Positions 8,532-30,860 of a DNA stretch of 32,590 nt are shown here, one piece after another (the stretch's first letter is position 1; each line of letters opens with the position of its first letter). A program made the translations under genes and the position numbers. The notes under the pieces are model-generated. The model did not search any database and had not been told where the DNA came from. It saw nothing but the letters and a program-made list of their open reading frames with translations. Location: positions 1-32,590 of the forward strand of contig QHXY01000005.1 of the NCBI GenBank assembly GCA_003223145.1, given 5' to 3'. Origin of the DNA: Acidobacteriota bacterium. GTDB lineage: Bacteria; Acidobacteriota; Polarisedimenticolia; Gp22-AA2.

Positions 8532-9694
8532 ATTTCAAGGGGACGCGATCGATCCGCAAGGACGACGTGACGCGTCTGGTCGAGCTCGCCGGCGGCACCT
8601 GGAACGGGTACACCTGGCTGGACGTGACCTCGTATTTCGAGACGGTGCAGAGCGACGCCCTGGAGGCGATGCTGCGTCTCGAGGCCTCGCGCATGACCGA
8701 GTGCCTGTACTCCAGAACCGAGGTCGATCGCGAAAGGACCGTCGTCATCTCCGAGCTCCAGGGAAGCGAGAACGACCCGCGCACCTATCTCGACAAGGAG
8801 GTCACCGGGACCGCGCTGCAGGCTCATCCCTACCGCTGGCCGACCATCGGGTACCTGTCGGACCTGCGGGCGATCACGCGCGACGACCTGTACGCCCACT
8901 ACCGCCGGTACTACGTCCCGAACAACTCGATTCTCGTGGTGGCGGGTGATTTCGACACGCCGAGGGCTCTCGGTCTCGTCCGGCGCCACTTCGGGAAGAT
9001 TCGCGCCGGCGCCGATCCGCCGCAGGTGCGGACGCAGGAGCCGCCTCAGGGCGGCGAGCGGCGCCTGACGCTGCGCCGGCCGTCGGGGGCGGCCTATCTC
9101 GACGTCGCGTTTCACGCGCCGGCCGCGGCCGACCCCGACTTCGCGACGCTCCTTCTGCTGGACGGGATACTTGCCGGCGGGCCGACGGTCAACGCCTGGC
9201 GAGGGCACGACGGCCGCGGGTCGGTCAAATCGTCGCGCCTGTACCGCGCCCTCGTCGAGGGCGACCTGGCGAGCGAGGTTTCCACCTCGGTCGTCCCGAC
9301 CCGCCATCCTTATCTTTACCGGATCGTCGTGACCGCCAAGCAGGGCATCGAGCCCGTCCGCATCGAGGCGGCGCTGGACACGGAGATTGATCGCCTGGCG
9401 CGGGGCGATCTCGAGCCGCGCGACCTGGAGCGCGCCAGGAACCAGTTCCTGGCGCGCTACGCGCTGGAGTCGGAGAGCACCACGGACGCCGCCCATCAGC
9501 TCGGGTTCTTCGAGACCATCGGCGGTCACGCGTTGTTCCTCGACCTGCCGCGCCGGGTCGCTGCCGTCGGCGCCGCCGACGTCGCCAGACTGGCCCGCGC
9601 CCGGCTGGCCGCCGACCGTCGGACCGTGGGCACCCTGGTCCCCGCCGGTCCTTCGGCCGTAGCCGCCGCGGCCCCGGACGGACCGACACGATGA
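8384..9694 (+). CDS. M16 family zinc peptidase (catalytic subunit-like); 5' end uncertain
   Basis: TRLPNGLTVILRE...ISHWVEHMNFKGT (HxxEH present), E residues in RTVVISELQGSENDP; no ATG/GTG/TTG in this frame for about 40 codons upstream. Confidence 0.85.
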   Translation, partial: GATRLPNGLTVILREMRHAPVVSVWCWYRVGSRDERPGITGISHWVEHMNFKGTRSIRKDDVTRLVELAGGTWNGYTWLDVTSYFETVQSDALEAMLRLEASRMTECLYSRTEVDRERTVVISELQGSENDPRTYLDKEVTGTALQAHPYRWPTIGYLSDLRAITRDDLYAHYRRYYVPNNSILVVAGDFDTPRALGLVRRHFGKIRAGADPPQVRTQEPPQGGERRLTLRRPSGAAYLDVAFHAPAAADPDFATLLLLDGILAGGPTVNAWRGHDGRGSVKSSRLYRALVEGDLASEVSTSVVPTRHPYLYRIVVTAKQGIEPVRIEAALDTEIDRLARGDLEPRDLERARNQFLARYALESESTTDAAHQLGFFETIGGHALFLDLPRRVAAVGAADVARLARARLAADRRTVGTLVPAGPSAVAAAAPDGPTR

Positions 9695-10906
9695 ACGCGG
9701 CCCGCACCGCCCTGGGCAACGGCCTGGTCATCATCGCCCGCGACAACCGCGCTGCGAAATCCATCGCGGTGCGGCTCGTCCTGGAGGCGGGAGCCGCCTT
9801 CGACCCGCCGGGCCAGGAGGGGACCGCCGCGCTGGCCGCCGATCTCCTGGACCGCGGCGCCGGGGCCCTGTCGGCGGGGGAGATTGCCGGCTACTTCGAC
9901 GATCTCGGGGTCTCCTACTCCGCCGCCGCCCGGCGGGACACGCTGGAAATCGAGTTCCGGCTCCTGTCGGAGCACCTCCCCGGCATCCTGGAGCGCCTGC
10001 GCATCCTGGCCGCGGAACCAACTTTCCCCGAGAAGGAGGTGGCGCGCCAGAAGGGGCTGATGCTCACGGCGATCGCGGAGCGCGACCAGGACACCTCGTC
10101 CGTGTGCGAAATCGCCCTGGCCCAGGCGGTGTTTCCCACCGGCCACCCGTATCACGCCCCGCGTCTCGGGACCCGCGACAGCGTGCGGCGCATCGGGCGC
10201 GCCGGCCTCCTCGCCTTCCACCAGGCGCGCTTCCGCCCTTCGGGTGCAGTCCTCAGCATGGCAGGCGACTTCGAGCGGACCCGCGCCCTGGAGATCGCCG
10301 CGGGTGTCTTCGCCTCGTGGACCGATGGCGCGGGACGGGCCCGCGCGGTCATCCCCGACGCGCCGGCCCCGGACCGCTCGATCATTGTGGCGCGTCCGAT
10401 CGAGGGAAAGACCCAGGCTGATATCGGTCTCGGCTTCCGCGGGCTCAGGCGCCTGTCGCCGGACCTGCCGGCGGCCCTGGTCCTCAACAGCGTCGTGGGG
10501 GAGTTCGCCCTCGGGGGACGTCTCGGCAAAGCGATCCGCGACCGGGCGGGCCTCGCCTACTTCGTCTACTCCCGGTTCACCGCCGGTCTGGGGGCCGGCC
10601 CGTTCGTGGTGCGCTCCGGGGTCGCGCCGGAGGGCGTGCGGCGGGCGCTCGACCTGATGCGCCGGACCATCGAACGGGTGCGCCGCCACGGGGTGACCCC
10701 CGCCGAGGTGAACGATTCGAAACGGGCCCTCGCCGCCGCCGTGCCCCGACGGATGGAGACCAACACCGAGTCGGCCGCCGTTCTCGCCGACGCCGAGTTC
10801 TACGGCCACGGGATCGACTACCCTGAGAAGCTGCCGCTACTTCACCCTCGGGCGCCACGTGCTCGTCGTCGCCGGCCCCGCCCTGGACGAGGAGGCTCTC
10901 CGATGA
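9691..10906 (+). pseudogene. Second M16 family peptidase-like gene (non-catalytic partner type), frame-disrupted near 10835
   Basis: ATGA overlap with upstream M16; ALGNGLVIIARDN...; no HxxEH. C-terminal homology (RYFTLGRHVLVVAGPALDEEALR*) resumes in another frame, stop TGA 10904-10906. Confidence 0.75.
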
Positions 10907-12663
10907 CCCCGCGATTCCGACCGCCGGACGCCGCGGCGTGGCGCGCCGGCGGGGCGCTCCTCCTGGCCGCCCTCGCACTCGGCGCCGGCCACGCGGCGCC
11001 CCAACCGTCGCCGGCGGATGCGACCCGGGGCGCCGCGGCGCCCGTGGCGGCCGCCGAGACGTACGACGTCCTGCTGCGCGGCGGCCGGATCGTCGATGGC
11101 TCCGGCAACCCGTGGTACGTCGGTGACGTCGCGATCCGCGGCGACCGGATCGCCGCCATCGGCGGTCTCAGGGACGCCCGCGCCCGCCGGACCATCGATG
11201 CGCGCGGGCTCGTGATCGCGCCGGGCTTCATCGACCTGCTCGGACAGTCGGAGATCACGGTCCTGGTCGACCCGCACGTGCGCAGCAAGGTCACCCAGGG
11301 GATCACCACCGAGCTGACCGGTGAGGGAGGATCGATCGCGCCGCAGACGTCCTTCACGATCGAAGACAAGATCGCCGTCGACTGGCGCGACTTCGACGGC
11401 TATTTCAGGCGGCTCAAGGAGAGGGGAACGGCGATCAACTTCGCGCACCTGGTCGGGGCGACGCAGGTCCGGCAGGCGGTGCTGAAGAGCGACAACCGGC
11501 TGCCCGACGCCGCGGAGCTCGAGGCGATGAAGCGCCACGTGGCCCGCGCCATGGAGGCAGGGGCCTTCGGCGTGTCGTCGTCCCTCATCTATCCTCCCGC
11601 CAGCTTCTCGGACACGCACGAGCTGGTCGAGCTGGCCAGGGTGGCGGCGCGCTACGGCGGCTTCTACGCCTCGCACATCCGCAACGAGGCCGACGACATC
11701 ATCCCGGCCCTCAAGGAGGCGGAGGCGATCGGCGAGCAGGCCGGCGTCCCGATCGAGGTGTGGCATCTCAAGTGCGCCGGGCGGAAGAACTGGGGTCGGA
11801 TGAAGGAGGTCGCCGCGGAGATCGAGTCGGCGCGGGCGCGGGGCATCGACATGACCGCCGACATCTATCCCTACCCGGCCTCCTCGACCGGCCTGGCGGC
11901 CAGCCTTCCGCCCACCGCCTCGGAAGGCGGTGTCGCGAGGCTGGTGGAGAGGCTGAAGGACCCCGCCGAGCGGGCGCGCATCCGCGCCGAGATCGAGAAC
12001 CCAACCGGCCGCTACGAGAACCCGTTCCACAACGTCGGCGGACCCGAGGGCGTCCTCATCGTCGGCGTGCGAACGCCGGCCAACAAGAAGTACCAGGGAA
12101 AGCGGCTTTCCGAGATCGCCGCCCTGCGCGGCCAGGACGCCATCGATACGATGTTCGATCTCCTGGTCGAGGAGAGCGGATCGGTGGACTGCGTCTACTT
12201 CGCGATGTCCGAGGACGACGTGAAGACCGCGATGGTGCAGCCCTGGGTGGCGTTCAACTGCGACAACGCCGGCGTGTCGCCCGACGGCGTCCTGGGCGCC
12301 AGCATGTGCCACCCGCGCGCCTACGGCACCTTCCCGCGCGTCCTCGGCCGCTACGTGCGCGATGACCAGGTCCTGCGTCTCGAGGAGGCCGTCCGCAAGA
12401 TGACCTCCCTCCCGGCGCAGAGACTCGGCTTGCGCGATCGGGGCCTGCTGCGCCCCGGCGCGTACGCCGACGTGACGGTCTTCCACCCGGGCAAGGTGAT
12501 CGACCGCGCCACCTTCGACAACCCGCACCAGTACTCGGAAGGGATCGTCTACGTCTTCGTGAACGGGGCGTCGGTGGTCGACCAGGGGAAAATCACCGAC
12601 CGGCTGCCGGGGCGGATCCTGCGCGGACCCGGATACCGGCCGGCGGCCACGCCCGGCCGCTGA
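10903..12663 (+). CDS. N-acyl-D-amino-acid deacylase-like amidohydrolase
   Basis: ATG at 10903 (ATGA overlap with true M16 stop), signal-like N-terminus, YDVLLRGGRIVDGSGNPWYVGDVAIRGDRIAAIG, GFYASHIRNEAD, TADIYPYPASSTGL, LRPGAYADVTVFHP. Confidence 0.88.
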   Translation: MTPRFRPPDAAAWRAGGALLLAALALGAGHAAPQPSPADATRGAAAPVAAAETYDVLLRGGRIVDGSGNPWYVGDVAIRGDRIAAIGGLRDARARRTIDARGLVIAPGFIDLLGQSEITVLVDPHVRSKVTQGITTELTGEGGSIAPQTSFTIEDKIAVDWRDFDGYFRRLKERGTAINFAHLVGATQVRQAVLKSDNRLPDAAELEAMKRHVARAMEAGAFGVSSSLIYPPASFSDTHELVELARVAARYGGFYASHIRNEADDIIPALKEAEAIGEQAGVPIEVWHLKCAGRKNWGRMKEVAAEIESARARGIDMTADIYPYPASSTGLAASLPPTASEGGVARLVERLKDPAERARIRAEIENPTGRYENPFHNVGGPEGVLIVGVRTPANKKYQGKRLSEIAALRGQDAIDTMFDLLVEESGSVDCVYFAMSEDDVKTAMVQPWVAFNCDNAGVSPDGVLGASMCHPRAYGTFPRVLGRYVRDDQVLRLEEAVRKMTSLPAQRLGLRDRGLLRPGAYADVTVFHPGKVIDRATFDNPHQYSEGIVYVFVNGASVVDQGKITDRLPGRILRGPGYRPAATPGR

Positions 12664-15838: not shown

Positions 15839-18595
15839 CTACTTCAGCGGGCGCCGCCAGCGGCGGATGGGCCGGCGCGGATCGGACCGCAGGGCGTACT
15901 TGAAGACGCGCCGGTACCAGAACTCCGTGGAGTAGAGGGAGTAGCCGCGAGCGGTGTAACGCTCGTCCGGGTCGGGTCGCGGCAACGCCAGCTCGGGCCG
16001 GCGCAGCACCTCGGCGAAAGGATGCGGGATGCAGGTGTTCGACATCGGGTCGAGGATGACCTCCGCGCCGTCGCACATCGCCACGATCACCTCGTGCGAG
16101 TCGATCCGCCGCGGCCCGCGGCCCCGGGGGTGATCGCTCGCCAGCATCGACAGCCAGCGCACGTCGAAGCCCTCGCGTCTCAGGATTTCCCCCAGAGCCA
16201 CCGCGTACCCCCAGCAGTAGGCGTGACCCCCGGCCAGGATGGAGACCGGATCGCTGCCTTCGGACGATGTCTCCGGGTGGAGCCGGCGGTAGACCCATTG
16301 CATTGCCTCCTTCGCCCGGTCGAGCCGGGAGGCGTGGGCGCTCCGCTTCCAGGCGCGGACATAGATCATCCGGTCGTCGGACGGCGGATAGGGGGGCATG
16401 CCGAGCTGTCGGAAGGTGTCGATCTCCTCCAGGACGACATCGCGGAAGCCGGCCGCCTGCAGACGCGCGGTCACGTCGTGGGGGACGGTCTTCCAGGTGT
16501 GGTTGTCGCAGATGCGATCCGGGTTGCGGGCGTCGCTCGGAACCGCCGCCACCAGGACGCCGCCCTGCCGCAGCACGCGATGGATCTCCGACAGGGTGGC
16601 GGTCACGGAGAAGGCGTGCTCGAGCGTGTTGTCGGCGTACACGCCGTCGAAGCGCCCGGCGAGGAACGGCAGGCGCGCGATGTCGCCCCGCAGGAAGCGG
16701 GCTCGGTCGGAGCGATAGTGCCGGACGGCCTTCGAGAGGAACTCCGCCCCGTAGTCGATGCCCTCCGCCTGCATCCACGGATAGAGCCGGGTGATCTCCG
16801 CGCTCCAATAGCCGGCCCCGCAGCCGAGATCGAGGACGCGGTCGCGATCCAGGGGAATCATCTCCTGCAGCCGTCGCGACTGCGCCTCGTTGCGCTCGCT
16901 CCCCATGATCGCCGTGTACTCGCGGCGGACCTGCCAGGCGGCGCTTTCCTCCGCCTCCCGGTGCGGCGCCGATTTCAGCTCGGCGCGCGCGATGCGGGCC
17001 ATCTCGGAAAGGCTCACGAACTCGACCCGCCCTTCCTGCCGCAGCCGCCGCAGACCCGCGGCGATCGCCGCGAAGTCGTGCTCTCCTTTGGTGTGTCCGA
17101 TCATCACGAAGTAGTCGTGGGCCGCCATGACCGCGGCCGGATAGTCGGCGAGGACATGCGCCAGCGGTTTCGGCAGCAGCCGGTTGACGAGAGGACGCAG
17201 GGGCCTCAGCCGGGCGTAACGGGCCGCCAGCCAGGCGCGTATCCTCTTGATGCGGCGGTACGCCTCGGTCGGAGGCCACGCGGCGGCCTCCTCCTCGAGA
17301 CAGCGCAGCAGGCGGCCGGCGAAGCGGGCCCCCTCGGGCCCGTCCAGCGACCAGCGCTGTCCGGGCCCCCAGGCGAACAGGGGCAGCTCGATGATTCCCT
17401 CCTCGTCCGGTGGGGCCAGGAGCTGCGGGTCCTGCCGGCCCGCGAAGTAGGGCTGGCGCCGCGAGAAGGCCAGGCGATAGTCGTAGCCGCGTGCGGCCGA
17501 GAAGCCCCCGGCGTGCACCGAAGAGTCGCACCCGATGCCGCACGCGACCAGCGCGTCGTGGAGTCGCGCAAACGGCTGTGTCTGGTATCCGCCGGCGCGG
17601 AAGGCGGTCACGCTGTAGGACGGATCGACCGGGCGTAGCACCGACTCGAGCGCCGATTTGCATTCCGCCAGACGGGCGGCCAGGTCCCCGGGATAGTCGG
17701 CGGCCTTCGACTTCGCAAGGTCCCAGGTCCAGGTGTTCCCCTCGCGCCTCGCACCCAGCTCCGGGAGCCATGCCGGGTGCAGATGAAGCTGCACGTCGTG
17801 CCCGCGTCGCACCGCGTCCTGCCACTGATGCTCCATGCGCGTCGCGACCGCCGGATCGTTCGCGCGCAGCCAGAGATACTCGCCGGCCTCCGCCATCAGC
17901 GTCAGCGTCGCTCCCTCCCGATCTCCGGTGCCGAGGAACGCGTCCGCGGGCTCGAACAGATCCGCCTCCCAGTCGATCGTCTCGCCCGGGGGGATCGGCT
18001 GCCAGGTCTCGTAGTCCAGTGTCACGGCCACCAGGCGCCGCCTGCGCCCCGCCAGGAAGAGGGCGTGGCCGCTCCTGAGGATGCGTTCCATCTCCAGGCG
18101 GAGGTACCTGCGGACCAGCCGCTCGAGCTCGTCCGGCTCCAGGTAGTTGCCGCCTGGGCACCACGCCGCGATGAAGGCGACGCCGCCCTCCTTCAGGTGC
18201 TCCGCGATCCATCGGAGAGAGGCGTTTCGGCCGTCCTCTTGCAGATAGCAGATGACGTCGCTGAAGACAATCAGATCGTACGGTCCGGCGATGTCGCCGA
18301 CCCGGCCGAGATCGGCTGCGGAGCCCTGCGCGAACCGGATGAACGGAAAGCGCCGCCGGCCCTTTTCGATCGCCAGGGCGCTGAACTCGACCCCGTCGAG
18401 CCGCCGGAAGCTGTCGCGGAAGTGCGCCAGGAAGGCCCCGAAGCCGCAACCGATGTCCAGGACCGATTCCCCGGACGGGACGCGCTCGCGAATCAGGCTG
18501 CGGTACAGGGCGTAGCGATCCGAGTCGGCCGCGCCGATCGCCCAGGGATCGTCGTCGTCGCGATAGATCTGGTTGAAGTCCCGCCTAACTTGCAT
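15839..18595 (-). CDS. Four-domain protein: class I methyltransferase / polysaccharide deacetylase-like / class I methyltransferase / transglutaminase-like
   Basis: VLDIGCGFGAFL (aa ~45-56); VAVTLDYETW, HDVQLHLHPAW, FRAGGYQTQ, IGHTKGEHDFAAI (aa ~188-545); VLDLGCGAGYWSAEITR (aa ~587-603); HAYCWGYAVALGEILRREGFDVRWLSM, DSHEVIVA, ILDPMSN (aa ~790-852). Confidence 0.8.
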   Translation of the reverse strand: MQVRRDFNQIYRDDDDPWAIGAADSDRYALYRSLIRERVPSGESVLDIGCGFGAFLAHFRDSFRRLDGVEFSALAIEKGRRRFPFIRFAQGSAADLGRVGDIAGPYDLIVFSDVICYLQEDGRNASLRWIAEHLKEGGVAFIAAWCPGGNYLEPDELERLVRRYLRLEMERILRSGHALFLAGRRRRLVAVTLDYETWQPIPPGETIDWEADLFEPADAFLGTGDREGATLTLMAEAGEYLWLRANDPAVATRMEHQWQDAVRRGHDVQLHLHPAWLPELGARREGNTWTWDLAKSKAADYPGDLAARLAECKSALESVLRPVDPSYSVTAFRAGGYQTQPFARLHDALVACGIGCDSSVHAGGFSAARGYDYRLAFSRRQPYFAGRQDPQLLAPPDEEGIIELPLFAWGPGQRWSLDGPEGARFAGRLLRCLEEEAAAWPPTEAYRRIKRIRAWLAARYARLRPLRPLVNRLLPKPLAHVLADYPAAVMAAHDYFVMIGHTKGEHDFAAIAAGLRRLRQEGRVEFVSLSEMARIARAELKSAPHREAEESAAWQVRREYTAIMGSERNEAQSRRLQEMIPLDRDRVLDLGCGAGYWSAEITRLYPWMQAEGIDYGAEFLSKAVRHYRSDRARFLRGDIARLPFLAGRFDGVYADNTLEHAFSVTATLSEIHRVLRQGGVLVAAVPSDARNPDRICDNHTWKTVPHDVTARLQAAGFRDVVLEEIDTFRQLGMPPYPPSDDRMIYVRAWKRSAHASRLDRAKEAMQWVYRRLHPETSSEGSDPVSILAGGHAYCWGYAVALGEILRREGFDVRWLSMLASDHPRGRGPRRIDSHEVIVAMCDGAEVILDPMSNTCIPHPFAEVLRRPELALPRPDPDERYTARGYSLYSTEFWYRRVFKYALRSDPRRPIRRWRRPLK

Positions 18596-19855
18596 GACCG
18601 GGGTGCCACCAGGCGCAATAGACGACCTGCGCCACCAGGACGAGAACGTAGCACACCAGGGAGGACAGCGAGGCGCCCATGATGCCGTAGGCGGGGATCC
18701 AGAAAAGGTTGAGACCGACGTTCAGCGCGCACGCCACGATCCAGATCAGGACCGAAAACCACGGGAACGACATCGAGGCAAGATAACTCGAGACGATGTT
18801 ATTCACGCCGTAGAAGATCATGGCGATCGCCAGCAGCACGAACGCCGGTGCCGCCGGCAGAAAATCCGCTCCGAACAGCAGACGGATGACCGGCCGGGCG
18901 AACAGGGCGGCGATTCCCGATACGCCCATCATCAGCACCAGCACCAGGCCGCTCATGCCCGCCGTCAGCCTCCATTTCTCCTCGCGGGTCGCGCGGGCCA
19001 CCAGCTTCGGGAACAGAAGCGTGCCGATGATCGACGGCAGGAGATAAACGAGGTCCGCCATCGAGGCGGCGATCGAATAGTAGCCGGTCTGCCGCGCCCC
19101 GAGCATGTGCTGCACCATCAAGAGATCGAAGCGCACCACCAGATAGGCGAACAGACAGGCCAGATACGACTTCAGCCCGTAGACCAGGTGCGCGCGCAGG
19201 AGACCGGGAGACGGCCATGGGATGACCGGGGCGAGGCGCCAGATCCTCATCAAGACCTGCGCCAGGCCGACGGCCGAGGCCGCCACTCCTGCCGCGAACA
19301 GAGCCGCGGGCGAGACGCTCCCCTCCAGGATGACCAGGACGATCAGACGCCGATGAGCAGATTCTGCAGGAGGAGATAGACGAGACCGATCGGGATCGAC
19401 GCGGAAGTCAGCAGCAGGAGCGTCCCGCTCAGGGGGGCGATGTCGGGACGGAGGAACGCGATCCCCCAGAGCGCCGCGACCACGACCGTGCCGAGAACCG
19501 CGCTGACGGCCAGGCTGTTGCCCGCCAGGCGCGGCAGCAGGCTGCGGTCCCGGGCGGCGAAGAACGTGTTGGCGGAATGCAGCCCCAGGTTCCCGAACTG
19601 CACACCGATACCGGCCAGCGCTCCGGCCACCGCGTACAGACCGCGTCCTTCCGGGCCGAGCGCCCGCGCCACCATGACGCTCGCCGCGACACCCGCCCCG
19701 ATCAGGAACACCCGGGTCGCGAAGGTCTCGCCCACCTTCCAGGCGAAATCGGACGCGAAGGCCCTCTGCCAGAAAGCGGCCCCCGCCGACCACAGCGAAG
19801 GGAGGGAGAACACGGTGCTCGAATCGAAGCGTGCGCCGCGCAGCATGATCGGCAA
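18585..19855 (-). pseudogene. Oligosaccharide/O-antigen flippase-like (MATE/Wzx-type) membrane protein, frame-disrupted near 19345-19355
   Basis: N-terminal half (19343-19855, GPEGRGLYAVAGALAGIGVQFGNLGLHSANTFFAARDRSLLPRLAGNSL) and C-terminal half (IVLVILEGSVSPAALFAAG...GYYSIAASMADLVYLLPSIIGTLLFPKLV...WIPAYGIMGASLSSLVCY) lie in different frames. Confidence 0.8.
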
Positions 19856-19874
19856 AGATAGGCTCGTCCGCCGC

Positions 19875-19904
19875 CTGAATCAAGACGCGCGGGCACGCTA
19901 TAAT
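19875..19904 (+). promoter_or_regulatory. Putative sigma70-type promoter (CTGAAT-N18-TATAAT) for the GT2 gene
   Basis: Perfect TATAAT at 19899-19904 in the divergent intergenic region; supports a GT2 start downstream of the ORF-track ATG at 19903. Confidence 0.45.
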
Positions 19905-20034
19905 GCGCCCGCTTCGCTCCGCGGCCGGTCCGATTCCCGGGCGGGCTTCCGGAAGGCGCGGCACGAGGTGCGGCGATGCCGTTCGCAGGCGCTGCGTGAC
20001 ACATCCCGCGGGATCTCCCCCCGGCGGCGGTCCG

Positions 20035-21042
20035 GTGCAAGCCCTCCCGGCCGCGGGCCCGCGGCGACGTCTCACCTCGCACCTCAGCGTCGTCGTCCCC
20101 CTCTACAACGAGGAAGAGAACGTCGTTGAGCTGCACCGGCGTCTGACCGGCATCCTGAACGGGCGCGGCATCCCCCACGTGCTGTATTTCGTCAATGACG
20201 GGAGCCGGGACGGCACCCTGGAGCGCCTGCGCAAACTCGCCTCCACCGACGGCCGCGTGCGCGTCCTGTCGTTCTCGCGCAACTTCGGGCACCAGATGTC
20301 GATCAGCGCCGGGCTGGCCCACGCCGACGGCGACGCCGTCGTGGTGATGGACGCGGACCTGCAGGACCCGCCGGAGTTGATCCCGGACATGCTCGATGGC
20401 TGGGCCGAAGGCTATGACGTGGTGTACGCCGTGCGCCGCAAGCGCAAGGAGGGCACGCTCAAGCGCGCCGCGTACGCGCTCTTCTACCGCGTCCTGCGTC
20501 GTATCAGCAACGTCGAGATGCCCCTCGACTCCGGGGACTTCTCGCTGCTGGACGCGCGCGTCGTCGGCCTGCTGCGCAGCTTCCCGGAGCGCAACCGATT
20601 CGTACGCGGCCTGCGCTCCTGGGTCGGCTTCCGGCAGACCGAGCTGGCGTACGAACGCATGCCGCGGCGCGCCGGGGAACCGAAGTACCGCATCCGCCAT
20701 CTCGTGAAGCTGGCACTGGACGGGTTCTTCGCCTTCTCGACCGTGCCGCTGCAGCTGTCGACCTGGCTCGGCTTCCTGGCGGCCGGGCTGGGCTTTCTCT
20801 ACCTCCTCTACGCCCTCGCCAGCCGGTTTCTTTACCAGAATCCGGCGGGCTGGACCTCGCTCGCGGCGATCATCCTGTTTCTCGGGGGCACGCAGCTGAT
20901 CCTGCTGGGGGTCCTGGGCGAGTACGTCGGGCGGATCTACGAAGAGGTCAAGCTGCGCCCGCTCTACATCGTGGACGAGGCGATCGGGTTCCCGGAAGAG
21001 GCACACGGCGCGGTCACGCGCCTGGGCGGGAAAAGTCCGTAG
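20035..21042 (+). CDS. Glycosyltransferase family 2 (polyprenyl-phosphate sugar transferase-like with two C-terminal TM helices)
   Basis: SVVVPLYNEEENVVELHRRL, FVNDGSRDGTLERL, VVVMDADLQDPPELI; C-terminal TM pair, GGTQLILLGVLGEYVGRIYEEVKLRPLYIV. Start tentative (GTG 20035; ORF track opens at 19903). Confidence 0.92.
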   Translation: MQALPAAGPRRRLTSHLSVVVPLYNEEENVVELHRRLTGILNGRGIPHVLYFVNDGSRDGTLERLRKLASTDGRVRVLSFSRNFGHQMSISAGLAHADGDAVVVMDADLQDPPELIPDMLDGWAEGYDVVYAVRRKRKEGTLKRAAYALFYRVLRRISNVEMPLDSGDFSLLDARVVGLLRSFPERNRFVRGLRSWVGFRQTELAYERMPRRAGEPKYRIRHLVKLALDGFFAFSTVPLQLSTWLGFLAAGLGFLYLLYALASRFLYQNPAGWTSLAAIILFLGGTQLILLGVLGEYVGRIYEEVKLRPLYIVDEAIGFPEEAHGAVTRLGGKSP

Positions 21043-21051
21043 AGGAGCCTG

Positions 21052-21807
21052 ATGGACCTCTCGATGTACCGCGATTTCGCGGAGGTCCACGAAGATCGGC
21101 ACTGGTGGTTCGTGGGACGCCGCCGGATCGTCCGGTCGCTGCTCATGAGCCTGCTTGGCCCGGGGCGCGACCGGACACTCCTCGAGATCGGCTGCGGCAC
21201 CGGCGGGATGCTCCCGGTCCTCTCGGAGTTCGGCCGGGTGACCGGCGTCGATCCGTCCGAGGACGCCATCCGCTACTCGCGTCAGAGGCACGGCCGCCAC
21301 GCCGAGCTCCTGCGCGTCGATTTCCCCGGCGAGCTGCCCCCGGGGGGCGGCTACGACGTCGTGGCCCTGTTCGACGTCCTGGAGCACCTGGATGACGACG
21401 CCTTGGCGCTCCGGCGCGCCGCATCTCTCCTGTCCCCGGGTGGGCTGCTCGTCGCCACCGTCCCGGCGCACCGCTTCCTCTGGTCGCCGCACGACATCAT
21501 CAACCATCATCGACGGCGCTATGCCCGCCGGGAGCTGCGCGCGCGCATCCGCGAGTCCGGTCTGGTCGTGTCACGACTGTCGTACTTCAACATGTTTCTC
21601 TTCCCCGCGGTCCTCATGGCCCGCCTGGTACGCCGATCGGCCGCCGGCGTGGACGGCGGACGGTCCGACTTCAAGACCACGCCGGGTCTGGTCAATTCGG
21701 CCCTGGCGCGTCTGTTCGGCGCCGAGCGTTTCCTGCTGCGCCGCCTCGACCTGCCGTTCGGTGTCTCCCTGCTGGCCGTGGCGCGCAAGCAGGCGGCGCC
21801 CCGATGA
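21052..21807 (+). CDS. Class I SAM-dependent methyltransferase
   Basis: LLEIGCGTGGMLPVLSEFG, GGYDVVALFDVLEHLDDD, LLVATVPAHRFLWSPHDIINHHRRRY. Confidence 0.92.
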   Translation: MDLSMYRDFAEVHEDRHWWFVGRRRIVRSLLMSLLGPGRDRTLLEIGCGTGGMLPVLSEFGRVTGVDPSEDAIRYSRQRHGRHAELLRVDFPGELPPGGGYDVVALFDVLEHLDDDALALRRAASLLSPGGLLVATVPAHRFLWSPHDIINHHRRRYARRELRARIRESGLVVSRLSYFNMFLFPAVLMARLVRRSAAGVDGGRSDFKTTPGLVNSALARLFGAERFLLRRLDLPFGVSLLAVARKQAAPR

Positions 21808-23153
21808 CATCGGGCCGCGGCGCGCTGCTGGTCCTCTTGGCCCTGGCCGTCCGGACGCCGATCCTGCTCACCCAGCACGACGATTACGCGAGCGGCGGAA
21901 TTACCACCGCCCTCGGTCTGGTGGCGCGCAATATCCTGGAGGGGCGCGGGCTCGTGGAGACCACCGGTCCCGACGCGATCCTCGCGCTCTACGATCGCCA
22001 GCAGGCCGAGGGCCGGCTGATCGACATCCAGGATTTTCCGGATCCTCCCGACCAGCCGACCAAGCCGTTGATCCAGAGAATGCCCGGCTACCCGCTCTTC
22101 CTGGCGATCGTGTGGAAGCCGGCCGGCGGTTACCGCTACCTCCCGGCCCAGGCGGTCCAGGTCCTTCTGGGCTCCCTGCTGCCGCTCCTGCTGTACGCCG
22201 CCGGGGGGCGCCTGTTCGGAGAGAGCGCCGGGATGCTCGCGGGTGGGATCACCGCGCTCAACCTGCCGATGGCCTGGCTGTCCGTGGTGCCGCTCTATGA
22301 CGGGTGGGTCCTCCTGGTCGCCGGTGTGGTCGTCTGGCTCCTGGTCCGGAGCGACGGGCGCGGCCACCCGTTCGTGGACTGGGCCTGGCTGGGGCTGGTC
22401 GCCGCCGCCGGGGCGCTCGTCCCCCGCCTCGGCCCGCGCCGGGCCGCCGTGCGCGGCGCCGTGGCGCTGGGGATTCCACTTCTCGTCCTTCTGCCGTGGA
22501 CCGTGCGCAACGAACGGATCTTCCACCGGCCGATCCTGACGAACACGTTCTTCTGGGCGACGGTCTGGGAGGGATTCGGCGAAATCGACAACGACTTCGG
22601 CGCGGTCCTCGACGACCGCGCCACCTTCGCGGCGGTCAGGGCGGCGCATCCAGGAGTCATTTACGCGTCTCCCGAATATGACGACCTGCTGCGCCCGCGG
22701 GTCCTCGAAGCGGTCCGTTCCCGCCCGGCCTTCCTCGTCAGGCTCGCCCTGCGCCGCCTGGCCCGCGGTCTGCTTCTTCCCGACGACCGCTGGGGTCTCC
22801 CGGCCGCCGAGGACCCGGGGCGCAGCTACGCCGCGTTTCGCGCGCGCACCGGCGGCGGCCCGGCCGCTTACGCGGCCGCCGAGCCGCTGGCGGTTGCGAT
22901 CAAGCTCATGAAGCTGCTCTGGGGCCCCGTCCTGCCGGGTCTCGCCGTCTTCGGTCTGTGGAAGCGCCGGGATCGCTGGCGCGAGCTCCTGCCGCTTCTG
23001 GGCGTCGCGGCGGCCTTTCTTGCGCCCACCGTCCTCCTGCACATGGAGGGGCGTTACCTGCTGCCGGCCTCCCTCATCTGGACCCTGCTCGCCGCAGCCT
23101 GCTTCTCACCGGTCCCCGGGGCACCCGCGTCAGGTGGTCGCGCCGCCGCATGA
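21804..23153 (+). CDS. GT-C type membrane glycosyltransferase-like protein
   Basis: ATGA overlap with methyltransferase; multi-TM, RMPGYPLFLAI, LLPWTVRNERIF, HMEGRYLLPASLIWTLLA. Confidence 0.75.
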   Translation: MTSGRGALLVLLALAVRTPILLTQHDDYASGGITTALGLVARNILEGRGLVETTGPDAILALYDRQQAEGRLIDIQDFPDPPDQPTKPLIQRMPGYPLFLAIVWKPAGGYRYLPAQAVQVLLGSLLPLLLYAAGGRLFGESAGMLAGGITALNLPMAWLSVVPLYDGWVLLVAGVVVWLLVRSDGRGHPFVDWAWLGLVAAAGALVPRLGPRRAAVRGAVALGIPLLVLLPWTVRNERIFHRPILTNTFFWATVWEGFGEIDNDFGAVLDDRATFAAVRAAHPGVIYASPEYDDLLRPRVLEAVRSRPAFLVRLALRRLARGLLLPDDRWGLPAAEDPGRSYAAFRARTGGGPAAYAAAEPLAVAIKLMKLLWGPVLPGLAVFGLWKRRDRWRELLPLLGVAAAFLAPTVLLHMEGRYLLPASLIWTLLAAACFSPVPGAPASGGRAAA

Positions 23154-24176
23154 GGAGCCGGCGCCCGCCGTGCACCCATAGCAGTGATTCCCGGTGATGA
23201 TGCGGCGCGCGTGGAGAGCCTCCGGGTCGAAGTCGCGGACATGACTTGGCGCGCCGTGGCCGATCGTCAGCTCGAGCATCTGGTTGAAGTCGCAATCGTA
23301 CAGGCGGCCGTCCCAGCCCACGGACAGCGTGTACCGGCACATCACCCCGGCGGCGGCCGCCGGGTTGAAGGCGTTCGCCAGGCGCTGCATATACCCTTCG
23401 TAGTTGCCGGACTCCAGGAGAAACTCGAGGAAGCGGCTGATCGGCATGTTGGTGATGGTGTGCAGATCGTTGAACACGATGCCGTGGTCGCGGGCGAGAC
23501 GTTGTCTGAACTGCCTCTCCTGCGGCTCCTGCGCGGGAGGGAGGAAGGCGCCGACGGGGTTGGTGACGAGGGTCAGCACGAGACCGCTTCCCGGTGTCCC
23601 GTACCCCAGGGCATTCAGGAGTCGCAGGGCCTCGATCGATTTCTCAAAGACCCCGCCGCCGCGCTGGGCGTCGGTTTGTGCGGGGACGACGGACGGCAGC
23701 GAGGCCACGACCTCCACATGATGCCGTGCCAGGAACCCGCCGAGATCCGCCTGCGACGGCAGGAGGAGCACGCTGAGATTGCACCGATCCATGACCCGCC
23801 GCCCCAGCCGCTTCGATTCCTCCACCAGGTAGCGGAAGACCGGGCTCAGCTCCGGCGCCCCCCCGGTGATGTCGACGGTCGGGATGTCGGTGGGCGCCAG
23901 CGCGGCCATACAGCGCTCCGCCGTCTCGCGCGACATCACCTCGGTGCGATCGGGGCCCGCGTCCACGTGACAGTGGCGGCAGGTCTGGTTGCACAGCTTG
24001 CCGACGTTGATCTGGAACACCACGATGCCGGTGGCCCTGAGCGGATGCAGCTGCGCCACGGCCAGCCTCTCCTCGAACCGCGGAACACCCCGCGTCGTTT
24101 CGAGAAGACGCACCTGCTCGGCGGCCGAGGAGAGCATGCTGCTCCGCGCCCTGAGGCTCTTCAGCGGTGGCGGCAT
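23130..24176 (-). CDS. arsS: Radical SAM/Cys-rich domain protein, ArsS-like (arsenosugar biosynthesis radical SAM protein)
   Basis: FQINVGKLCNQTCRHCHVDAGPDRTE (CxxxCxxC), VDITGGAPELSPVFRYLVEE, GRLYDCDFNQMLEL, ITGNHCYGCTAGAGSSCGG; ORF track extends to 24212. Confidence 0.82.
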   Translation of the reverse strand: MPPPLKSLRARSSMLSSAAEQVRLLETTRGVPRFEERLAVAQLHPLRATGIVVFQINVGKLCNQTCRHCHVDAGPDRTEVMSRETAERCMAALAPTDIPTVDITGGAPELSPVFRYLVEESKRLGRRVMDRCNLSVLLLPSQADLGGFLARHHVEVVASLPSVVPAQTDAQRGGGVFEKSIEALRLLNALGYGTPGSGLVLTLVTNPVGAFLPPAQEPQERQFRQRLARDHGIVFNDLHTITNMPISRFLEFLLESGNYEGYMQRLANAFNPAAAAGVMCRYTLSVGWDGRLYDCDFNQMLELTIGHGAPSHVRDFDPEALHARRIITGNHCYGCTAGAGSSCGGATT

Positions 24177-24186
24177 CGCCGACTCC

Positions 24187-24519
24187 TTACATCGAGATCT
24201 TCGTGGCCACATTGCGCATCTGGACCCCGTGCGCGAGCGAGGCGCCGCCCCGGATGGCGCAGGCGACGTGCACCGATTCCGTCATCTCTTCGACGTTCGA
24301 CCCCTTCTCCAGGCAGGCTTGCGTGTAAGCGTCGATGCAGTAGGGGCACTGCACGGCGTGGGCCACCGCCAGGGCGATGAGCGCCTTCTCCCTCGCGGTC
24401 AGCGCGCCCTCGGCGAACACGGCCCCGTAATAAGCCATGAACTTCTCCCACAACTCCGGGTTGCCCTTCCCCATGTCGGCGAAGTGCGCGAGATCCTTCG
24501 GATGGTAGTAGGTGTCCAC
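24187..24519 (-). CDS. Carboxymuconolactone decarboxylase/AhpD-fold protein, arsenosugar biosynthesis-associated peroxidase-like
   Basis: GALTAREKALIALAVAHAVQCPYCIDAYTQACLEKG; 10 nt upstream of the ArsS-like gene on the same strand. Confidence 0.82.
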   Translation of the reverse strand: MDTYYHPKDLAHFADMGKGNPELWEKFMAYYGAVFAEGALTAREKALIALAVAHAVQCPYCIDAYTQACLEKGSNVEEMTESVHVACAIRGGASLAHGVQMRNVATKISM

Positions 24520-29214: not shown

Positions 29215-30537
29215 TCAGGCGGGGATCGGCGACCCCGGCGCCGGCTCGAGCACGCCGAGTAGCGGCACCGGCGGATTGAACTTCAACAACCGCTGCATCC
29301 TGATCACAAGATAAAAGCACCAGAGCCGCAGCCGAACCGGTGGCGTCGGATCCGCCATGCCCGCGAGGAGACTGATGACCGCTTCGCGGATGCGGAAGCG
29401 CTCGCCGGGCCGCAGGAACACGTCGAGGAAGCCCGGCTGATAGAAGCGGCTCACGATCCGGGAGTAGATCCGGACGTGGCGCCGAACTTTCTTTTCGTAA
29501 GCGGCGAACACCGCGGGCGTCAGGTCCCCCCGACTCCCGTCCCGGCCCAGGGCGCGGTCCAGCATGTCGGCGGCGATCTCCGCCGAGGACATCGCCAGCC
29601 ACACCCCGGTGGAGAAGAGTGGATCGATGAACGCCGCGGCGTCGCCGAGCAGGAGGTACCCGTCCCCCGCGATCCGGCGGCAGCCATAGCTGTAGTCGCT
29701 CGCGGTCCACACGGTCGAGACGCGCCGGGCGACCCGCGTCCTGTCGCGCGCCGCGGGACAGCGCCGCAGCGCCTCCTCGAGCAGGCTCTCCGGCGGGAGA
29801 CCGCTGCGCCGCAGCGTTGCGCCCTCGCCGACGAGACCGACGCTGGTCGTGCCCCCGGGCAGCGGGATGAACCAGAACCATCCGTCGCGCAGCAGGACGA
29901 GCACGATGTTGCCCCCGGCGGACCCAGGAGTCCGGGGGACACCCTCGTAGTGGGCGAAGATCGCCGCCTTGCGCAAACGTGGCATCATGTCGCGCAGCCC
30001 CCGGCGCGACGCCACGAAGGCGTCGCGGCCGCTGGCGTCGAGCAGAAAACGCGCCCGGCAGCGGACCGTCCCGCCGTCGCGGCCGCGCGCCGTGACCGCG
30101 CAGCCGTCGCGATGCGAATGGGTCGCCTCGATCACGGCGTGCCCCTCGTACACCCGTGCCCCCCGGTCGGCGGCGTTGCGCAGCAGCAGCTCGTCGAAGC
30201 TGGAGCGCAGGACCTGATAGGCCTTCGGGTGCCCCGGAACGAATCCCTCGGCGAACACGATGTCGCGCGTGATGGCGCCGTCGCTCGACACCAGGTGCGC
30301 GCCCCACTTCTCCACGAAGCGCTCTGCCACGCGGTCGAGGATCCCGAGGCGCCGCAGGAGGTCCATGTTGTAGGGCAGGAGCGACTCACCGATGTGGAAC
30401 CGCGGGAAGATCTCCTTCTCGAAGAGCGCGACGCTGCGTCCCGCCGTCGCCAGGAGCGCGGCGGCGGTCGAACCGGCCGGTCCGCCTCCGATCACGCATA
30501 CATCCGCCCCCACCTCGACCGGCGCCCTCGCAGACAT
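29215..30537 (-). CDS. FAD-dependent oxidoreductase, flavin-dependent halogenase-like
   Basis: ADVCVIGGGPAGSTAAALLATAG (GxGxxG-type), PRFHIGESLLPYN, DGWFWFIPLPGG (WxWxIP-like), GYLLLGDAAAFIDPLFSTGVWLAMSS; start ATG 30537 preceded by GGGAGG. Confidence 0.85.
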   Translation of the reverse strand: MSARAPVEVGADVCVIGGGPAGSTAAALLATAGRSVALFEKEIFPRFHIGESLLPYNMDLLRRLGILDRVAERFVEKWGAHLVSSDGAITRDIVFAEGFVPGHPKAYQVLRSSFDELLLRNAADRGARVYEGHAVIEATHSHRDGCAVTARGRDGGTVRCRARFLLDASGRDAFVASRRGLRDMMPRLRKAAIFAHYEGVPRTPGSAGGNIVLVLLRDGWFWFIPLPGGTTSVGLVGEGATLRRSGLPPESLLEEALRRCPAARDRTRVARRVSTVWTASDYSYGCRRIAGDGYLLLGDAAAFIDPLFSTGVWLAMSSAEIAADMLDRALGRDGSRGDLTPAVFAAYEKKVRRHVRIYSRIVSRFYQPGFLDVFLRPGERFRIREAVISLLAGMADPTPPVRLRLWCFYLVIRMQRLLKFNPPVPLLGVLEPAPGSPIPA

Positions 30538-30860
30538 GTCGCCTCCCTCGGCTTGCGCCCGACCGTCACGCATCGTAAGCAAAAGGTCGATCAGTCGCAA
30601 GAGGCGTGAAAATGACCGACAAGCGTGCGGGTCGAACATTCACTCTCCGAGAGACGCAGGCGTCCGTTTCCGCGTCGAGGGCCTCGGAGTCCAAGAGATG
30701 GAGGCGTGCGGTCATAATTCGTGTGGAGTGAGCAAGTTAGGCTGTTGCCTCGTCCCTTCACCCGCACTGTTGTCGGGCATTTTCCCTTGCATTTGGGCGG
30801 TGCGCGTCGTACTGAAGGACGTCACCCGTATTTGCACGCAGCAGCAGGAGAGTGTCGAGC

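Follow-up and report, generated by a model that had tools for sequence, protein, structure and literature searches.

A candidate surface-glycan tailoring enzyme joining two methyltransferases, a deacetylase and a transglutaminase-like module in one reading frame

In Nod-factor synthesis, which is not known to involve a transglutaminase-like enzyme, an amine released by a NodB-fold deacetylase is methylated by NodS and acylated by NodA, all in the cytosol and on an oligosaccharide. NodS is known to N-methylate Nod factors only after deacetylation (PMC5080398). In P. gingivalis and T. forsythia, the deacetylase VimE, the (amino)acyl transferase VimA and the amidotransferase WbpS make an aminoacylated sugar (PMC7468200), and here too N-(amino)acylation comes after the action of a CE4-family deacetylase, in a polysaccharide context and with an AsnB-type amidotransferase at hand. 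Amides are also made by arylamine N-acyltransferases (NAT) and the amide synthase GdmF with a Cys-His-Asp triad, that of GdmF being Cys73-His111-Asp126 (PMC11903869).

We describe here a protein from a soil/groundwater bacterium that resembles these systems in its parts but carries the parts in a single chain. The Nod enzymes are, in contrast, separate proteins, while the Vim pathway has neither methyltransferases nor a fusion and uses in VimA a FemAB/GNAT-like rather than a transglutaminase-like enzyme; the likeness of our deacetylase module to VimE is taken from the description of VimE, and the Wbp/Vim-type genes seen in the present analysis are of the AsnB type, plus one FemAB-like gene in a Bacteroidota locus (L030). 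The protein is very probably a cytosolic surface-glycan tailoring enzyme, whose substrate, in contrast to that of the Nod-factor system, is unlikely to be chitin.

The fusion gene and its neighbours

The window, that is, the whole 32,590-nucleotide stretch of DNA analysed, is one contig of a 474-contig MAG, the genome being 88% complete. The gene of interest, its modules and the adjoining genes are the following.

15839..18595, minus strand: fusion gene MT1-DAC-MT2-TG, ATG start, 918 aa, without internal stop
18056..18595, minus strand: MT1, aa 1-180, class I SAM methyltransferase, NodS-like (Methyltransf_23; motif I DIGCGFG at D47)
16952..18052, minus strand: DAC, aa 182-548, NodB/CE4-fold deacetylase (predicted model plus Foldseek, 16-sequence alignment)
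16361..16945, minus strand: MT2, aa 551-745, class I SAM methyltransferase (Methyltransf_25/11; motif I DLGCGAG at D589)
15842..16360, minus strand: TG, aa 746-918, transglutaminase-like Cys-His-Asp domain (Transglut_core, 3.2e-5)
18585..20075, minus strand: Wzx/MurJ-type flippase, longest reading (Polysacc_synt_3, 1.9e-7), directly upstream of the fusion and overlapping it
18585..18595, minus strand: 11-bp overlap of flippase stop and fusion start, with the same 11 bp in L028, L032 and L037
19903..21042, plus strand: GT2 glycosyltransferase of a divergent operon, with a homologue beside the AsnB/GT4 locus of G049 (L112)
21052..21807, plus strand: SAM methyltransferase of the divergent operon, with a homologue in L031
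21804..23153, plus strand: 449-aa protein of the divergent operon, with homologues in L112 (the G049 AsnB/GT4 locus) and L031

An earlier note on this DNA, which had not given the strand, described a single uninterrupted 918-aa frame at 15839-18595, and this reading holds on the minus strand, the plus-strand reading of the same interval being interrupted by a stop codon. All of the motifs it cited are where it placed them (DIGCGFG at aa 47, LDYETW at 193-198, HDVQLHLHPAW from 266, FRAGGY from 332, IGHTKGEHDF from 499 and DLGCGAG at 589), as are residues C794, H834 and D849. Direct reading of the sequence likewise returns the 11-bp overlap with the flippase gene, whose true start probably lies further downstream than in the longest reading; a flippase homologue also precedes the fusion in L028, L029, L032, L037 and the loci of a sister family. 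The call of the 449-aa protein as GT-C is that of the earlier note, and the protein matches no Pfam family.

With a source assembly of 474 contigs, a chance ORF or an assembly join of unrelated genes could be suspected. However, homologues with the same domain order are found, and not always as separate genes: the same fusion occurs in at least eight other assemblies from several phyla, full-length relatives being 75-76% identical in two genomes of the genus and 41-59% identical in others, and dN/dS between genus members is 0.13-0.30 in every one of the four modules, indicating purifying selection on all of them. We therefore reject an artefactual origin, which recurrence in independently assembled genomes of several phyla leaves with a negligible likelihood. 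No second full-length match occurs in its own genome, where the remaining matches are partial and confined to methyltransferase domains.

Elsewhere in the window, a radical SAM protein with a DUF3641 domain (23130-24212, minus strand) adjoins the divergent GT2/methyltransferase operon, and a FAD-dependent tryptophan-halogenase-like/FAD monooxygenase protein (29215-30639, minus strand) adjoins a methionyl-tRNA synthetase gene. A 990-aa frame (9691-12663, plus strand) combines an M16 peptidase unit (aa 14-347) with an amidohydrolase (aa 500-963), and homologous long frames are present in same-genus genomes.

Folds and candidate catalytic residues of the modules

The two SAM-methyltransferase modules anticipated from their motifs are recovered by Pfam as class I domains at aa about 27-148 and 586-681 (E about 1e-28 to 1e-32), both with the DxGxG motif I; in the MT2 alignment YADNxLEH and most of motif I are invariant. 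MT1 scores 36 bits against NodS (PF05401), above the curated cut-off of 24, and the Pfam search finds no NodS stretch in MT2. The best solved-structure matches of MT1 in the PDB are dTDP-amino-sugar N-methyltransferases, including sugar N,N-dimethyltransferases, and these are better than the NodS match. As similarity to NodS is common to many methyltransferases, non-orthologous neighbouring ones among them, we treat the likeness between MT1 and NodS as a lead only. The methyltransferase genes beside the three-module proteins of L030 and L073 were considered as a split-off MT1 and rejected, since they are only 25% identical to it, and we do not name them orthologues.

A PDB sequence-profile search with DAC and TG returned noise only and no relatives, which is why a fold search was used for both. 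For DAC, aa 185-545 of the window protein have no Pfam match, PF01522 (Polysacc_deac_1) included; PF01522 is matched by four of the 16 DAC relatives (best 1.5e-5). The AF2 model, built from six sequences, has a mean pLDDT of 70.6 and is weak after residue 180, and its best Foldseek matches are PuuE allantoinase/polysaccharide deacetylases (3cl6/1z7a/3rxz, E 2.9e-5). Together, the predicted fold and the Polysacc_deac_1 matches of relatives bear out the deacetylase core that the earlier note had recognised. In the 16-sequence alignment, which includes standalone deacetylases, D194, E196, H271, H273, R333, D357, H501 and K503 are invariant throughout, so that DAC keeps the D/H/H/R/D/H set of CE4/NodB-fold enzymes such as PuuE and the polysaccharide deacetylases. 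Its candidate metal residues D194, H271 and H273 nevertheless have the spacing H-x-H, whereas the usual CE4 metal motif is Asp-His-His with H-x3-H. Similar motifs presumably occur in the WalW-type CE4 subfamily (CDD), which we take to have an LPS context; a literature search for WalW found no paper. A relative of DAC in Pseudoalteromonas overlaps an AAC(3)-family N-acetyltransferase gene and abuts a CoA-ligase-family gene within a polysaccharide locus, and a plasmid search gave one distant standalone deacetylase.

For the C-terminal module, the Transglut_core family (PF01841) is matched at 24.6 bits, just above the curated cut-off of 23. The AF2 model (pLDDT 85.9) retrieves TglA, TGase, LapG, NAT, GdmF, PeiP/PeiW and vasohibins in Foldseek, the best matches being mostly Cys-His-Asp enzymes of the transglutaminase/papain-like kind, hydrolases and amide-forming ones alike. 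The transglutaminase-like fold proposed for this region is thus supported by both the family score and the model matches. The predicted triad residues are located as follows, helices and strands being numbered as in the TG model.

16214..16216, minus strand: C794, predicted nucleophile, at the N-terminus of helix 49-62
16094..16096, minus strand: H834, predicted His of the triad, within strand 86-96
16049..16051, minus strand: D849, predicted Asp of the triad, where strand 99-104 ends

All three are invariant in 14 of 14 sequences, one of which (G422) stands outside the fusion. In the predicted model they adopt the canonical layout, with Cys at a helix N-terminus and His and Asp on adjacent strands (model positions 49, 89 and 104); the structural check suggested earlier for these residues covered their helix and strand placement. 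The spacing of the triad is 40/15 in TG and 38/15 in GdmF. NAT and GdmF, which make amides via an acyl-cysteine and are both among the Foldseek matches, resemble TG as Cys-His-Asp enzymes with close triad spacing, but they are three-domain proteins of about 250-280 aa against only 173 aa for TG, their TM-scores to TG are only 0.3-0.46, and sequence similarity to TG was not detected.

These fold matches bear on the direction of the chemistry, as TG could alternatively belong to a glycan-tailoring enzyme in which it acts as a hydrolase, namely a deamidase or amidohydrolase on a sugar amide or an amino-acid substituent. Such a role would agree with the cysteine hydrolases LapG, PeiP/PeiW and vasohibins among its structural neighbours, and the AsnB-type amidotransferases encoded in the same loci, enzymes that in known cases make uronamides, would supply amide substrates. 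To make an amide only to hydrolyse it would, however, be wasteful, and deacetylases of related loci are paired with N-acyl or aminoacyl transferases rather than hydrolases, as in VimE-VimA and Pseudoalteromonas. We consider the hydrolase reading rather unlikely, and favour amide formation or exchange in what follows.

Distribution of the fusion and the polysaccharide locus

The four-module frame is present in three genomes of the genus (its own, G001 and G003) and in L028 and L029, spanning Acidobacteriota, Myxococcota and a cyanobacterium-labelled MAG, and the Bacteroidota carry a three-module core. The Myxococcota MAG sequence (L029, 59% identity) is cut by the contig end, and the phylum label of L028 (56% identity) is weak because its contig is only 4.1 kb long; among the 244 genomes searched from that labelled phylum, the fusion was found in no other. 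Among Bacteroidota, L030 has deacetylase, MT2 and TG in one frame with a separate methyltransferase gene just upstream, L031 is cut by the contig start with its frame still open upstream of the deacetylase, and G567 and G591, from the Bacteroidota search, have the three-module core. In all four genomes of the sister family (G008-G011) the same module order continues in frame into lnk (roughly 170 aa) and a GT4 glycosyltransferase, giving proteins of 1449-1454 aa. Taken together, these sequences form a graded series: deacetylase alone, as in further genomes of the phylum and also among Bacteroidota; a TG-like protein outside the fusion (G422); deacetylase-MT2-TG; MT1-deacetylase-MT2-TG; and the last with lnk-GT4 added.

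The occurrence of DAC and of a TG-like protein on their own, of Bacteroidota cores without MT1 and of GT4 as a separate gene in most genomes might suggest that each module has a substrate or step of its own, the fusion securing no more than joint expression at a fixed stoichiometry, without channelling. Against this, the order DAC-MT2-TG is constant in 13 of 13 core sequences, and it is one type of locus that uses the pieces. As the same neighbours have been fused repeatedly, consecutive steps are suggested, and we regard fusion without channelling as improbable.

With the three-module proteins G567 and G591 as root, a tree of the core joins the genus clade to the sequences from Bacteroidota, Myxococcota and the cyanobacterium-labelled MAG (100/100) and sets it apart from the sister family; in the same-genus genomes G002 and G004 the fusion was not found. 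Judged from these sequence comparisons, the history of the fusion is one of patchy distribution with horizontal transfer. Since the fusions of the genus and of the sister family are not sister clades, what is concluded from their shared locus crosses gene transfer.

Sister-family loci are arranged as Wzy-Wzy-AsnB-flippase-[MT1-DAC-MT2-TG-lnk-GT4]-heparinase II/III-ADH/GFO oxidoreductase-GT4s. A second contig of the window's own genome, C279, reads Wzy-Wzy-AsnB-[lnk-GT4, as a separate protein]-heparinase-ADH/GFO, with an AsnB that is 59% identical to that of the sister family and lies directly before lnk-GT4. The same empty slot before lnk-GT4 is seen in G001 and G002, and in G007 and G004 a flippase and a single methyltransferase stand immediately before it. 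The flippase-plus-fusion pair of the window thus corresponds to what occupies this slot in other genomes. The lnk-GT4 protein is found in all five genus genomes (partial at the contig edge in G003), in all four of the sister family and in only three of 51 other genomes searched. G002 and G004 keep this locus without the fusion, which is therefore dispensable or replaceable there. The in-frame GT4 of the sister family, a Rosetta-stone link, and the overlapping flippase put the enzyme in the cytosol, at a step of surface-polysaccharide synthesis that precedes flipping, and together with the matching locus on C279 they support the surface-glycan role already proposed in the earlier note, whose glycopeptide option is conjectural.

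Several further features of these loci were observed. The slot before lnk-GT4 varies among close relatives (L096 and L108-L111 versus L033-L036), being empty, filled by flippase and methyltransferase, or filled by flippase and four-module fusion, as if it were a hot spot at which tailoring cassettes are swapped. In L110 (G004:C51, 7171-9369) a 733-aa open frame directly before lnk-GT4 reads through a flippase into an in-frame SAM methyltransferase, possibly a flippase-methyltransferase fusion. The poorly described lnk domain (about 170-180 aa) is fused to GT4 in L055 (907-2577) as well as in the sister family; small Bacteroidota ORFs at a comparable position upstream of GT4 (L030, 4310-4741; L031, 2243-2659) do not match the lnk profile. 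Genes for AsnB-type amidotransferases number at least nine in genome G000 (contigs C108, C393, C442, C56, C66 and others), and some of their loci also contain GT4 genes, which suggests many glycan (or peptide) amidation pathways.

The AsnB, Wzy ligases and GT4 families of the locus are closest to XrtA-system models, and the modified sugar could thus be a protein-anchoring or linking sugar, of a Wbp/Vim pathway or an exosortase/PEP-CTERM system, rather than part of a bulk exopolysaccharide: AsnB best matches TIGR03108, the GT4s match XrtA-system GT families, and exosortases are present in G001, G002, G003, G008 and G009. The scores nonetheless fall below the family cut-offs (for TIGR03108 about 506 bits in the sister family, well below 816.9), a search for exosortases found none in G004, G010, G011 or the 88%-complete genome of the window, and two Wzy-type ligase/polymerase genes with a heparinase fit polymer synthesis. 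A linking sugar is in our judgement distinctly improbable, and synthesis of a surface polysaccharide remains our preferred setting.

A scheme for amino-sugar tailoring before export

No stretch of the 918-aa protein is as hydrophobic as a transmembrane segment (maximum 19-residue Kyte-Doolittle value 1.16), and this, like its SAM dependence, fits a cytosolic place before flipping. In the scheme that we propose, the enzyme would be a soluble, cytosolic component of a flippase/Wzy-dependent surface polysaccharide pathway. Its CE4-fold module would take the N-acetyl group off a nucleotide- or lipid-linked amino sugar, and one or both SAM methyltransferases would then methylate the freed amine or a neighbouring hydroxyl. 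The Cys-His-Asp module may make or exchange an amide there via an acyl-cysteine intermediate, and the finished unit would pass to the partner GT4, fused in the sister family and separate on C279, and to the co-translated flippase. We infer the substrate, the order of the steps, the methylation target of MT2 and the making, rather than breaking, of amides by the Cys-His-Asp module. We give the full sequence of deacetylation, methylation and (re)acylation or amidation before export an even chance of being right. That the whole line grew by successive fusions, starting from a single module and reaching six with the glycosyltransferase, and with TG making a sugar amide by re-acylation of the deacetylated amine or by transamidation of an AsnB-made uronamide, is offered more tentatively and is doubtful as a whole.

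As far as can be told, the parts are of known kinds, and what is new is the architecture and the way it grew step by step. The literature search found no paper on the four-module architecture or on deacetylase-transglutaminase fusions, only unrelated meanings of WbmS, and no characterised or named protein or family covering the whole architecture, in line with the earlier note, which had not recognised the fusion as a characterised enzyme. Nor did we find an earlier description of glycan tailoring before export in which a transglutaminase-like domain takes part, and we know of no precedent for sugar-amide formation by such a module in bacterial surface-glycan synthesis. The graded series offers a natural experiment in the physical coupling of glycan-modifying steps, and it names candidate consecutive steps that come together in a single expressible protein. 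If the Cys-His-Asp module does make sugar amides, an acyl-transfer mechanism would be added to bacterial glycan chemistry.
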